Source: Clostridiales bacterium
Lineage (GTDB): Bacteria > Bacillota > Clostridia > Oscillospirales > Oscillospiraceae
Direction of reading: 5' to 3'
DNA: 37,264 nt
Assembly: GCA_021201635.1 (NCBI GenBank)
Contig: JAJQEM010000157.1
Coordinates: forward strand, 1 to 37,264
In this document: one piece after another, positions 32,127-37,264 of the stretch
Position numbering within the stretch: the first letter of the stretch is position 1
Layout: each line of letters opens with the position of its first letter
Program-made: the position numbers and the translations under genes
Notes under the pieces: model-generated
What the model saw: only the letters and a program-made list of their open reading frames with translations
What the model was told of the DNA's origin: nothing
Database searches by the model: none

Positions 32127-34745
32127 TCAGCCCTTGCCTCCAATGAGACCGCAGGCCTTGCAGATCTCCATGGCCAGAAGGGGGACCAGGGTGAGGCCCA
32201 CCCCTGCCAGATACAGATACCAGGGCAGGGCGACCAGGCCAAACACCGTGGTCAACGGGGTGAACAGCACCAGCGCCATCAGCGCCACAGAGACCAGGGC
32301 CGCCTGATTCAGCCTGCCGTTGGAGAAGGGGCCGATGCGGAACAGGGAGCGCTCTGAGCGCATATTGAACGACTGCACTACCTGGGACAGGGCCAGCACC
32401 ATAAAGGCCAGGGTTTGTCCCCCCTCGTCGCTGCCGGTGACGGAGGCACCCACCAGGAAGGCCGCCAGGGTCAGCAGGCCGAACATGAGACCCTGGAGGA
32501 CGATCTGCACGCCGAAGCCGTTGGCGAACAGGCCCTCGTCCCGGGGCTTGGGCTTGTGGTCCGTGACGTCCGGCTCCACCGCCTCCATACCCAGGGCGAT
32601 GGCGGGGAGGCTGTCGGTGACCAGGTTGACCCACAACAGCTGCATGGACTGGAACAGGGACTTGTGCCACAGCACCATAGCCAGAAAGACGCAGATCACC
32701 TCGCCGATGTTGGTGCCCAGGAGGTAGCCCACCACCTTTTTGATGTTGGCGTAGATGCCTCTCCCTTCCCGGACGGCGTCTACAATGGTGGTGAAGTTGT
32801 CGTCGGTGAGGGTCATGTCGGCGGCTCCCTTGGCTACGTCGGTGCCGGTGATGCCCATGGCGCAGCCGATATCCGCCGCCTTCAGGGCGGGGGCGTCGTT
32901 CACCCCATCGCCGGTCATGGCCACCACCTGGCCCTTCCGCTGCCAGGCCTTGACGATGCGTATCTTATTCTCCGGGGAGACCCGGGCGTAGACGGCGGTA
33001 CGCTCCACCTGGCGATCCAGCTGGGAGTCGGTCATGGCGTCCAGCTGTGCGCCGGTGATGGCCAGGTCGCCCTCCTCCAGGATACCCAGGTCCTTGGCGA
33101 TGGCGGAGGCGGTGATGACGTGGTCTCCGGTGATCATCACCGGTTTGGTGCCCGCCTGACGGCAGGTCTTCACCGCCTCCCGGACCTCGGGACGGGGCGG
33201 GTCGATCATCCCAACCAGCCCCAGGAAGGTCAGGTCACTCTCCAGCGCTTTCTCTGTGGGCTGAGCCGGGACCTCGTCCAGATCCTTATAGGCCACCGCC
33301 AGCACCCGAAGGGCGGAGGCACTCATCTCCCGGTTCACCCGGTGGGCAGTCGTCACGTCTCCACGGACGCAGAGGGGGGCGATGCCGTCAAAGGCACCCT
33401 TGACGATGGCGACGATCTTGCCGTCTATCCGGTTCACCGTAGTCATCCGCTTCCGGTCGGAGTCAAAGGGCAGCTCCGCCAGCCGGGGGCAGTCCCGGTT
33501 GAGCTGCTCTTTGGGCATGCCGTTGTTGTGGGCCGCCAGGACGATGGCCGTCTCGGTGGGGTCACCGATGTGCTGCACCGCTCCGTCGTCGTGGAACACC
33601 GCCGTTCCGTCGCTGCACAGGGTCCCGTATTGGAGCAGGCGGCATACCTCCGGGGGACAGCGGTCGGACACGTCCTCCGGGCCGTCAGCACCGTCCAGGT
33701 AGGTTTTGACCAGGGTCATGCGGTTCTGGGTCAGGGTGCCCGTCTTGTCCGAGCAGATGACCGAGGCGCTGCCCAGCGTCTCCACGGCGGGGAGACGGCG
33801 GATGATGGCGTTTTTCTTTACCATACGCTGGACGCCGATGGACAGCACCACCGTTACGATGGCGGGCAGTCCCTCCGGAATGGCGGAGACCGCCAGGGAG
33901 ACTGCCGTCATAAAGATGCTCAGGGGCTCCAGACCGTTGGCCAGGCCGATGACGAAGATAATGGCGCAGGCGGCTATTGCTACGATGCCCAGATACTTAC
34001 CCAACTGGCCCAGCTTCTGCTGGAGGGGGGTCTGCCCCTCCTCCTCACCCTCCAGAAGGTTGGCGATCTTGCCCATCTCGGTATCCATGCCGGTGGCGGT
34101 CACCAGGGCGGTGGCGGTGCCGTAGGTGATGCTGCACCCGGAGAACACCATATTGGTCCGGTCCCCCAGAGGGGCGTTCTCCGCCACCACTGCCTCGGCG
34201 TCCTTTTCCGAGGGCACCGACTCGCCGGTGAGGGCGGACTCCTCGCTTTTCAGGCTGACGCTGTGGAGCAGGCGGCTGTCCGCCGGGACGAAGTCCCCCG
34301 CCTCCAGACGGATGACGTCGCCGGGCACCAGCTGCGCCGCCTCAATGACCTGCTCCGCCCCGTCCCGGATGACCCGGGCGTGGGGAGCGGACATATTTTT
34401 TAGGGCGTCCAGGGCCTTCTCCGCCTGGCTCTCCTGCATGACGCCGATGACGGCGTTGACGATGACGATGAGTAAAATCAATGCAGGTTCAAAGAACTCT
34501 TGGGGGTCGCCCTGGACGCAGGCGATGGCGAAGGACACCGCCGCCGCAGCCAGCAGGATGAGGATCATGGCGTCCTTGAACTGGTCGATAAACCGCTGGA
34601 GGTTGGTCTTTTTCGGTTTCTCCCGGAGATGGTTCTCCCCATGCTCCGCCAGGCGTTCCGCCGCCTGCTGTCCAGTCAGGCCATTTTCCCGGTCCGAGCG
34701 GAGCTGCGCCAGCGCCTGCTCCCGGGTGGTGCTGTGGAATATCAT
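32127..34745 (-). CDS. Cation-translocating P-type ATPase, calcium (SERCA/PMCA) type
   Basis: CSDKTGTLTQNRMTL phosphorylation motif; MTGDGVNDAPALKAADIGCAMGITGTDVAKGAADM; ALTGESVPSEKDAEA. Confidence 0.95.
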   Translation of the reverse strand: MIFHSTTREQALAQLRSDRENGLTGQQAAERLAEHGENHLREKPKKTNLQRFIDQFKDAMILILLAAAAVSFAIACVQGDPQEFFEPALILLIVIVNAVIGVMQESQAEKALDALKNMSAPHARVIRDGAEQVIEAAQLVPGDVIRLEAGDFVPADSRLLHSVSLKSEESALTGESVPSEKDAEAVVAENAPLGDRTNMVFSGCSITYGTATALVTATGMDTEMGKIANLLEGEEEGQTPLQQKLGQLGKYLGIVAIAACAIIFVIGLANGLEPLSIFMTAVSLAVSAIPEGLPAIVTVVLSIGVQRMVKKNAIIRRLPAVETLGSASVICSDKTGTLTQNRMTLVKTYLDGADGPEDVSDRCPPEVCRLLQYGTLCSDGTAVFHDDGAVQHIGDPTETAIVLAAHNNGMPKEQLNRDCPRLAELPFDSDRKRMTTVNRIDGKIVAIVKGAFDGIAPLCVRGDVTTAHRVNREMSASALRVLAVAYKDLDEVPAQPTEKALESDLTFLGLVGMIDPPRPEVREAVKTCRQAGTKPVMITGDHVITASAIAKDLGILEEGDLAITGAQLDAMTDSQLDRQVERTAVYARVSPENKIRIVKAWQRKGQVVAMTGDGVNDAPALKAADIGCAMGITGTDVAKGAADMTLTDDNFTTIVDAVREGRGIYANIKKVVGYLLGTNIGEVICVFLAMVLWHKSLFQSMQLLWVNLVTDSLPAIALGMEAVEPDVTDHKPKPRDEGLFANGFGVQIVLQGLMFGLLTLAAFLVGASVTGSDEGGQTLAFMVLALSQVVQSFNMRSERSLFRIGPFSNGRLNQAALVSVALMALVLFTPLTTVFGLVALPWYLYLAGVGLTLVPLLAMEICKACGLIGGKG

Positions 34746-34953: not shown

Positions 34954-34995
34954 ACAGTCAGAATCCTTTTATCTTACCGCAAGTGAGGTGTGCCT

Positions 34996-35472
34996 ATGTC
35001 CGCTGTTCTGGAAGCTCCCTATGATACCCTGGTCTCCCGGCTCGCCGCCCTGCTGGAGGGGGAGCGGGACACCATTGCCAACCTGTCCAACGCCTCCGCT
35101 TTGCTCATGGACGCCCTGGAGGGGCTGAACTGGGCGGGCTTTTATCTGTTGCGGGAGGGCGTGCTGGTGCTGGGCCCCTTTCAGGGCAAGCCCGCCTGTA
35201 TCCGTATCCCCCTGGGCCGGGGGGTCTGCGGCACGGCGGCGGAACGGAAGGAGACGATCGTCGTCCCGGACGTTCATCAGTTCCCCGGCCACATCGCCTG
35301 TGACGGGGCCTCCCGCTCGGAGATCGTGGTGCCTCTCCACCGCTCAGATGGCAGTCTGGCAGGGGTGCTGGACGTGGACAGCCCCCATCTGGACCGTTTT
35401 TCTCACGCTGACCGGGTGGGCCTGGAGGCGTGCGCCCGGCTGATCGAGGCCGCCTGCGACTGGCGTATCTGA
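34996..35472 (+). CDS. GAF-domain free methionine-(R)-sulfoxide reductase
   Basis: ANLSNASALLMDALEGLNWAGFYLL; LVLGPFQGKPACIRIPLGRGVCGTAAERKETIVVPDVHQFPGHIACDGASRSEIVVPL. Confidence 0.92.
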   Translation: MSAVLEAPYDTLVSRLAALLEGERDTIANLSNASALLMDALEGLNWAGFYLLREGVLVLGPFQGKPACIRIPLGRGVCGTAAERKETIVVPDVHQFPGHIACDGASRSEIVVPLHRSDGSLAGVLDVDSPHLDRFSHADRVGLEACARLIEAACDWRI

Positions 35473-35553: not shown

Positions 35554-36078
35554 ATGAGCAATCAGGTTATGGAATCTATTCTCTCCCGCCGGAGCGTCCG
35601 CAGCTACAAGCCCGACCCGGTGCCCAAGGAGCTGCTGGATCAAGTGCTGGAGGCGGGCACCTACGCCGCCACCGGCATGGGGCGGCAATCCCCTATCATT
35701 ATCGCCGTCACCGACAAGGCCCTCCGGGACAAGCTCTCCGCTATGAACGCCGCCGTCATGGGCAAGCCGGGGATGGACCCCTTCTACGGTGCGCCCGTGG
35801 TGCTGGTGGTACTGGCGGATAAGAGCCTCCCCACCCACGTCTATGATGGCAGCCTGGTCATGGGCAATCTGATGGAGGCCGCCCACGCCGTGGGCCTGTC
35901 CAGCTGCTGGATCCACCGGGCCAAGGAGGAGTTCGAGACGGAGGAGGGCAAGGCCATCCTGACCTCTCTGGGCATCCAGGGAGACTATGAGGGCATCGGC
36001 CACTGCATCCTGGGCTATGCCGACGGCCCCGCTCCCCAGCCCAAGCCCCGGAAGGACGGCTACGTCTACCGGGTGTGA
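35554..36078 (+). CDS. Nitroreductase-family protein
   Basis: MESILSRRSVRSYKPDPVPKELLDQVLEAGTYAATGMGRQSP; MGNLMEAAHAVGLSSCWIHRAKEEF. Confidence 0.93.
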   Translation: MSNQVMESILSRRSVRSYKPDPVPKELLDQVLEAGTYAATGMGRQSPIIIAVTDKALRDKLSAMNAAVMGKPGMDPFYGAPVVLVVLADKSLPTHVYDGSLVMGNLMEAAHAVGLSSCWIHRAKEEFETEEGKAILTSLGIQGDYEGIGHCILGYADGPAPQPKPRKDGYVYRV

Positions 36079-36199: not shown

Positions 36200-36796
36200 T
36201 TAGAGAGCGGACCGCTGTTCATCCAGGGGAGAGGGCTGACCGGGCCAGATCTGCTGATAGAGGTGCCAGTATTCCTGCCAGGCGGGATAGTCCCGGAGAC
36301 AGTCGAGAGTGCCGCCCACCTCCCGATAGTACCAGCAGTGGGCCAAAGGGTCCTGCTGGTGAAAGCGGGTCCAGAGCGCATCCCCCTCCCGGATGAGGGC
36401 CTGGTGCATGGCCCGAAGGTTGGAGAGCTTGTCCCCCATGGCGATGATTTTGACCTCCCGGCGGGAGTCCTGGCGGAGGTGGCGGATGGCCTCCTCCTTT
36501 CGGAGCTGCCAGGTGGTCTCCGGGGCTTGGTCAGGACGCTTGTCTTCCGTCTCGGCGGCTACCAAGGACGCCACCCGGGAGCCGAAACGGTCCTCCAGCA
36601 GTTCCAGAGTGCAGGGGGTGTCCTCCACCACATCGTGGAGCACGGCGGCGGCCAGGACGGTCTGGTCCTCTGTGATGGAGGCGGCGATGGCGGCTGCCTC
36701 CAGAGGGTGGAGGATATAGGGGACGGAGCTGCCCTTGCGGACGACGCCGCTGTGGACCTGCGTCGCAAACAGAATGGCCTCTTCCAGTATCGTCAT
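36200..36796 (-). CDS. HD-domain phosphohydrolase, RelA/SpoT hydrolase-domain-like (standalone small alarmone hydrolase-like)
   Basis: ILFATQVHSGVVRKGSSVPYILHPLEAAAIAASI...AAAVLHDVVEDTPCTLELLEDRFG...KIIAMGDKLSNLRAM; RBS AAAGGAG. Confidence 0.88.
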   Translation of the reverse strand: MTILEEAILFATQVHSGVVRKGSSVPYILHPLEAAAIAASITEDQTVLAAAVLHDVVEDTPCTLELLEDRFGSRVASLVAAETEDKRPDQAPETTWQLRKEEAIRHLRQDSRREVKIIAMGDKLSNLRAMHQALIREGDALWTRFHQQDPLAHCWYYREVGGTLDCLRDYPAWQEYWHLYQQIWPGQPSPLDEQRSAL

Positions 36797-36844
36797 CTGT
36801 GTTCACTCCTTTGTGCAGAGCGGTATGGAATCAACGGAATTGCC

Positions 36845-37151
36845 CCAAGACATAGTGTGACCCCTATCCATCTCCTGCGGATAGGGGTCAGCACTGTGAA
36901 TTCTTGGTATCTAGCATCCGTTGTTTACCTCGCTTTCCCAGATTTGCGAGCCCCGACTCCTTTTGAGTAATGACTGCACCGCCTTACCTGCCGCAACGAT
37001 TTGACATCCTCTTTGATGTCCATGCCCCTTCTGGGCCGATTGCCGGAACTGCCGGAGTTATACATCCTTCAAAAGCTCGCACATTTCGATGGGCCTTGGC
37101 TCATCTCGGGATCTCGGCGTTGGCCGATTAGTGATCGCCTTTCTTTTGGGT
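36845..37151 (-). ncRNA. Putative structured RNA / long 5' leader, unassigned family
   Basis: Downstream of a strong promoter, no plausible CDS, several hairpins and a long-range CGTTG/CAACG pairing; ends in a 63-nt CCAAGA..TGACCCCTATCC/GGATAGGGGTCA..TCTTGG hairpin. Confidence 0.55.
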
Positions 37152-37157
37152 GAGATA

Positions 37158-37186
37158 ATCATAGCACAGAAACACACTTTTGTCAA
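37158..37186 (-). promoter_or_regulatory. Sigma-A-type promoter of the putative structured RNA
   Basis: Minus strand TTGACA (37186-37181), 17-bp spacer, TATGAT (37163-37158), A/T-rich upstream region. Confidence 0.75.
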
Positions 37187-37264
37187 CACCATTTTTGATT
37201 TATTTTTTAAAAAGCGAAAATTGCAAGTGCAAGTTGAACACATCCGCGAAAAATTTTTAATAGA

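Follow-up and report, generated by a model that had tools for sequence, protein, structure and literature searches.

A putative stand-alone RNA family of gut Clostridia with micro-ORFs at both ends

The leaders of antibiotic-resistance ABC-F (ARE-ABCF) genes carry short upstream open reading frames (uORFs), including MR[I/M] in C. difficile cplR, MIN in B. subtilis vmlR and MK[L/Q] in vmlR2, and L. monocytogenes lmo0919/rli53 is a further leader of this kind (PMC10201436, PMC11550727). By analogy, these three-codon uORFs appear to be the closest described architecture to the RNA analysed here, whose family has in common with them a structured leader, an intrinsic terminator, a seemingly translation-sensitive logic and, in most relatives outside the lineage of this RNA, a 5′ micro-ORF of about three codons. 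A uORF of 2–4 codons is found in 110 of the 116 units of Shine-Dalgarno (SD) and AUG in relatives of this RNA, its own lineage having an SD-like sequence only. It differs from ARE-ABCF leaders in that neither a resistance gene nor any other consistent gene lies downstream, a same-strand gene being consistently present only in one lineage linked to an HD gene. It also has a second conserved ORF of 8–10 codons that ends inside the terminator, and simulated occupancy of its uORF leaves the accessibility of the downstream SD unraised.

Minigenes such as lambda bar, which cause ribosome titration or peptidyl-tRNA drop-off, likewise consist of an SD and an AUG-NNN-stop ORF, whereas the ORFs described here sit in a conserved structured RNA with a promoter and a terminator. 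SgrS and RNAIII are dual-function small RNAs. A trans-acting attenuator RNA is exemplified by peTrpL (PMC7298713). The present RNA resembles all three in being small and structured and in encoding a short peptide, and differs in the peptide length of 9 amino acids, in a stop codon inside the terminator and in a second, 5′ micro-ORF; comparative evidence points to a translated small ORF, as in dual-function small RNAs. The raiA motif, or ModT RNA (PMC11706538, PMC11751092), is likewise structured, stands alone and measures a few hundred nucleotides in Bacillota; from it the family described here is set apart by its micro-ORFs and by another helix plan.

The window, meaning the whole 37,264-nt stretch of DNA that was analysed, carries this RNA on its minus strand, where contig C18 ends in a draft assembly that totals 1.85 Mb over 167 contigs. 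As the best overall explanation, to which we give a probability of roughly 0.45, the sequence comparisons point to a small stand-alone, ribosome-engaged RNA family of gut Clostridia.

Promoter, Rfam screening and structured interior

The following features define the upstream part and the interior of the RNA.

37158–37186, minus strand: sigma-A promoter TTGACA-17-TATGAT with extended −10 TG (11 of 12 matches)
37069–37081, minus strand: 5′ strand of helix P1, TGCGAG-CTTTTGA (covariation)
37035–37026 and 36996–36984, minus strand: small hairpins (consensus structure)
37003–37020, minus strand: hairpin GACATC/GATGTC inside P1 (both sides changed in two pairs)
36945–36966, minus strand: 3′ strand of P1, TCAAAAG (36966–36960) and CTCGCA (36950–36945) (covariation)

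A sequence-only reading had proposed that a promoter here drives a conserved, structured RNA, and this proposal is borne out by the homologues found, by their covarying helices and by an RNA strand that folds more stably than its dinucleotide shuffles (z = −3.6). The promoter named in that reading is the sole promoter-like site that a scan of 36500–37264 detected (37186–37158; 0.6 sites expected), and alignment shows that it is kept in relatives L002–L010 as TTGACAAAAG...TATNAT.

Searching the window RNA region against Rfam 15 returned zero matches, either at the gathering threshold or at E ≤ 10. Homologous RNAs (loci L001–L014 and L016–L021) gave low-scoring miRNA-like or chance overlaps with Rfam models, none above cut-off. 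A T-box leader scoring 92.1 bits, against a gathering score of 93, lies on the minus strand of L011 (984–1231), the locus where that genome has its copy of the RNA. The raiA motif, offered earlier as a candidate identity, was rejected: RF03072 (gathering score 101.3 bits) matched none of 59 genomes, comprising the window genome and its relatives, and the window region held no hit to it even at E ≤ 10, while the positive control worked, with matches in 7 of 61 genomes of the phylum, six of them above cut-off. Judged by these searches and by the homologues, we regard the ~300-base RNA as a member of a gut-Clostridia RNA family that is absent from Rfam.

In an alignment of genus members, P1 is a long-range helix of 13 pairs around the GACATC/GATGTC hairpin, with both sides changed in six of the 13 pairs and 97–99% of cells paired. 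Across the consensus structure, 15 of 41 pairs are changed on both sides, compared with 5.8 in shuffled alignments, none of 500 shuffles reaching 15. Another, separately aligned group of Clostridia has an equivalent helix, TTCGCCTTTTG/CAAAAGGTAGA, which covaries together with a TTCTC/GAGAA hairpin. Double-sided pair changes in both alignments exceed those of all 500 shuffles and of all slid versions, a comparison in which the consensus structures are somewhat favoured because they were predicted from the same alignments used for testing. The sequence and length of the interior vary among subfamilies and the ends of the RNA are common to the whole family, which we take to possess a conserved structured core.

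The local stems listed in the sequence-only reading are literally present in the window, and the alignments treat them unequally. GACATC/GATGTC is supported. CCGG/CCGG is paired in 72% of cells, and the inner pairs of GGCG/CGCC in 45%; the ACTC/GAGT hairpin, paired in 62%, was discarded as not conserved across the aligned relatives. The local CTCGC/GCGAG hairpin, whose fourth pair fails in 5 of 10 sequences, was likewise discarded. CTCGCA pairs instead with the distant TGCGAG in a helix extended by CTTTTGA/TCAAAAG. Taken as a whole, the earlier structure has 84% of cells paired and seven pairs changed on both sides, worse than the consensus.

Micro-ORFs and their Shine-Dalgarno sequences

Three features bear on translation of the window RNA.

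37133–37144, minus strand: SD-like AGAAAGGCGATC near the presumed transcript start (duplex with the 16S 3′ end, −11.2 kcal/mol)
36928–36937, minus strand: extended SD GAAAGCGAGG of the 3′ micro-ORF (16S duplex, about −14 kcal/mol)
36888–36917, minus strand: 3′ micro-ORF ATGCTAGATACCAAGAATTCACAGTGCTGA, from ATG at 36917 to TGA at 36888, peptide MLDTKNSQC (comparative sequence)

The region had been described as free of any credible CDS. This holds for long reading frames before the HD gene ATG at 36796, but the 9-codon ORF at 36917–36888 had been overlooked. In the family, the extended SD and a micro-ORF of 8–10 codons form an invariant 3′ block with the peptide consensus M(x)L[D/E]xKxxxK. A stop is reached after 8 or 9 codons in 138 of 141 loci (TGA 88, TAA 40, TAG 12), the patterns that selected these loci ending at the fifth codon and leaving the ORF end free.

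Since the same patterns fixed several bases in the first five codons, we scanned the order (295 genomes) with a looser pattern, in which the SD and ATG plus T-R-R-CCC were fixed and distances were varied over all three phases. The 42 members chosen by eye were all in phase. Their peptides include MLEPAHEMK, MLEPASSMK, MIEPKSFGK, MKLDNKTEMK, MTLDTKITEK, MKLDIKTEEK and MLDIKTEQK, the last with a CTC leucine codon, and synonymous, conservative and subfamily-specific changes are seen among them. Variants within the genus are MVLDFKIAES, MRLDFKIEQK and MKLDFKIEEN, and the genus comparison also places MVLDFKIEKG in the family. Because MLDIK also starts unrelated long proteins, matches were kept only when the ORF was very short.

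In the MLD subfamily the silent positions of GAT, AAG and TTA are strongly conserved, in part since the search patterns fixed them, and an RNA-level role for the same bases is thus conceivable. This conservation speaks for an ordinary noncoding, trans-acting small RNA whose ORFs are by-products of conserved motifs, an explanation that we consider very improbable: three types of stop codon occur at a fixed codon, ORF length varies in phase, substitutions are synonymous or conservative, and the 5′ ORFs of two to four codons are confined to frame 0. By comparative sequence, the RNA very probably represents a family that stands alone and whose 3′ micro-ORF is translated.

The peptide might itself be the functional product, the RNA being the mRNA of a cytosolic peptide of 9–10 amino acids whose translation is tuned by a structured 5′ UTR and a uORF. 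In favour of this possibility, no element is better conserved than the peptide among subfamilies whose interiors differ, and its conservation is position-specific, M(x)L[D/E]xK...K. Yet 9 amino acids without a signal sequence would make a very small protein product, the residues past LDxK are free to vary, each lineage conserves its interior structure as well, and a peptide product would not require the stop codon to overlap the terminator; overall, we find it unlikely.

At the other end of the RNA, most homologues outside the window lineage have a strong SD just past the promoter, followed by an AUG and by a stop after two codons, giving MYR, MYK, MNR, MKT, MRK and other peptides. Among 116 such SD-AUG units, collected with a motif that leaves the stop unspecified, 93 have two further codons and then a stop, and 110 reach a stop within three; in the other two frames a stop falls within three codons in only 5 and 7. 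Two units are present in 11 RNAs. The window lineage keeps the SD-like AGAAAGGCGATC at the position of its relatives' 5′ SD, with no AUG after it. Median energies of the SD-16S duplex are −13.0 kcal/mol for the 3′ ORF and −13.45 for the 5′ ORF, compared with −8.25 for ordinary ORFs of ≥250 aa, so that the SDs of both micro-ORFs bind the 16S 3′ end by ~5 kcal/mol more strongly than those of ordinary genes. Translation of the 5′ micro-ORFs in the relatives is, on these comparisons, quite probable.

Near-maximal SDs, ORFs of the form AUG-NNN-NNN-stop and tandem units in 11 RNAs, with four in L194, would also fit an RNA that titrates ribosomes or initiation, slowing translation under some condition through 30S capture or peptidyl-tRNA drop-off, as minigenes such as lambda bar do. 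We judge this explanation improbable, as it accounts neither for the structured interior nor for the constrained amino acids of the 3′ ORF, and as the window lineage lacks the 5′ ORF. A folding switch by which the uORF would expose the 3′ SD was also considered; in thermodynamic folding alone, mean accessibility of the 3′ SD was 0.70 with the 5′ uORF free and 0.67 with it blocked, which gives the switch no support.

Two further observations concern the 5′ ends. In most homologues, for example L017–L021, L024 and L028, a GG-N5-7-CC box stands directly before the AUG and after the 5′ SD (GGTACAGTCCAATG, GGTGATACCAATG). In L194, the sequence ~250 nt upstream of the 3′ ORF (MLEPANNSIK) can be read as a tandem of four minimal ORFs, ATGAACAAGTAG, ATGAAATAA, ATGAGATAA and ATGAGATAA, each with an SD-like sequence.

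Terminator overlap, neighbouring genes and proposed action

Downstream of the micro-ORF the window holds the following.

36854–36895, minus strand: terminator-type hairpin overlapping the stop TGA at 36890–36888 (99% paired)
36200–36796, minus strand: HD_4 protein of 198 aa, RelA/SpoT-type hydrolase-like (Pfam HD_4, 8.9e-20)
35554–36078, plus strand: nitroreductase-family protein, an ordinary neighbour
34990–35472, plus strand: GAF-domain protein of 160 aa, an ordinary neighbour
32127–34745, minus strand: cation-transporting P-type ATPase, an ordinary neighbour

The long terminal hairpin of the sequence-only reading stands, at 99% paired, without its outer CCAAGA/TCTTGG pairing, which is unsupported. 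Throughout the family the 5′ arm of the terminator starts before the end of the stop codon in 92% of members (median −5), compared with 14% (median +12) for the ordinary terminator-bearing genes of these loci. Provided that they coincide in time, the hairpin and a ribosome ending the micro-ORF must therefore be competitors.

At family level the RNA is not tied to a neighbour. The downstream gene lies on the same strand in 42 loci and on the opposite strand in 59, and the commonest Pfam family occurs only four times among 97 downstream proteins and five times among 103 upstream proteins. Mixed strands and the lack of a recurrent neighbour family indicate that the RNA is a stand-alone unit, with its own predicted promoter and terminator, and the same figures led us to reject a leader of the downstream gene as the family-wide role.

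The window lineage adds a specific arrangement. Its HD gene, whose product resembles the N-terminus of RelA/SpoT with a score far below the NCBIfam cut-off, lies on the same strand ~90 nt downstream (within ~110 nt in L001–L005, L007 and L008), and the promoter scan of 36500–37264 found no second promoter before it. The final hairpin had been said to lack a clear U-tract, and a terminator scan indeed detected none; the best 8 positions hold 3–6 T in this lineage and mostly 6–7 elsewhere, counts that overlap, so that a lineage-specific decay of the U-tract is suggestive only. The earlier suggestion of read-through into the HD gene is plausible for this lineage, with no U-tract, no second promoter found and a shared strand. 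We infer that the HD gene was captured by the RNA unit in this lineage specifically, and give a leader function for it there an even chance.

An RNA acting purely in cis, as an attenuator or leader of this RelA/SpoT-like gene, would account for the same-strand HD gene in L001–L005, L007 and L008, and for a degenerate U-tract in the HD-linked lineage where a second promoter was not found. Copies outside the lineage are found beside unrelated genes on either strand, and the window genome itself has a second copy elsewhere; an HD leader can thus only be a lineage-specific use, and as a full explanation it is quite improbable.

Under the preferred reading of a stand-alone, ribosome-engaged RNA, ribosomes would load at both ends. 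The 5′ ribosome complex might protect the RNA or report on it, and a ribosome finishing the 3′ micro-ORF would compete for bases that the terminator hairpin also needs. Translation could thereby affect the transcript end and lifetime, with the peptide made along the way. In most genomes the output would be a short RNA, a peptide or both, with an effect elsewhere than on the genes alongside; in the window lineage, with its decayed U-tract and an HD gene ~90 nt downstream, the unit would probably also be a translation-sensitive HD leader.

Competition between translation and the terminator as the working principle is a tentative proposal. The downstream gene is more often on the opposite strand, which would make read-through pointless in most members. 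To judge by B. subtilis, transcription in these bacteria may run uncoupled from translation, in which case the competition would be weak. Similarly tentative is the broader proposal of a new class of ribosome-organised RNA, combining one or more 5′ minimal ORFs under near-maximal SDs, a structured lineage-specific middle and a conserved ORF of 8–10 codons with its stop embedded in the terminator, that would act in trans as a sensor of translation state or as a ribosome-docking regulator. If the ribosome-terminator overlap is functional, the family would offer a compact natural system in which to study how translation is coupled to termination, a matter debated in such bacteria, and the HD gene of the window would exemplify an RNA of this kind turned leader of an alarmone-hydrolase-like gene.

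Distribution and copies of the RNA

Among the window genome and its relatives, 59 genomes in all, a DNA search located the RNA in 12. Identity reached 92% and fell to short core matches in a second genus of the family and in a different family; the promoter, a 5′ purine block and the 3′ block are the conserved parts in the alignment. The 3′-block pattern matched 7 of the 391 genomes scanned in the class, of which six belong to families from other orders, with 0 control matches, and at least 118 stretches in a GTDB contig collection; Oscillospiraceae, Ruminococcaceae, Clostridia, Candidatus Faecousia and Lachnospiraceae are represented among the contig matches listed. A related pattern applied to 399 genomes of the phylum gave one match outside the class, judged to be chance. 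Membership by pattern errs on the conservative side where copies have diverged, a few chance matches may be among the members, and many of the genomes compared are draft metagenome assemblies.

The core pattern of the family had no match in viral contigs, nor had the window RNA in plasmid and phage records, and a phage or plasmid origin was rejected on these grounds. A literature search for MLDIK or MLDTK found no paper with either, and the main text of a human-microbiome structured-RNA survey (PMC8040213) held no usable lead. The comparisons would bring to the abundant gut Clostridia an RNA and micropeptide family that is widespread and so far uncatalogued. Its two conserved micro-ORFs fall below the length that gene finders pick up, and its interior diverges too far for simple RNA searches to follow, which may explain why the family was overlooked.

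Within the genus, the order-wide loose pattern matches 22 of 32 genomes, a few by chance, at up to three copies of the RNA per genome. The second copy in the window genome (G000:C54:3525-3575, locus L249) encodes MLDIKQHR. It resembles second copies from two other genomes of the genus (L013, L014). Further genus paralogues (L222, L228, L236, L238) encode peptides that begin M(V/R/K)LDFK..., and their interior is a different one. Their sequences suggest that the structured middle may have been swapped between constant ends. L236 and L238 have the motifs CACAATGTCCGTGGTAA and CAGCGCTGACGTGTT in common.
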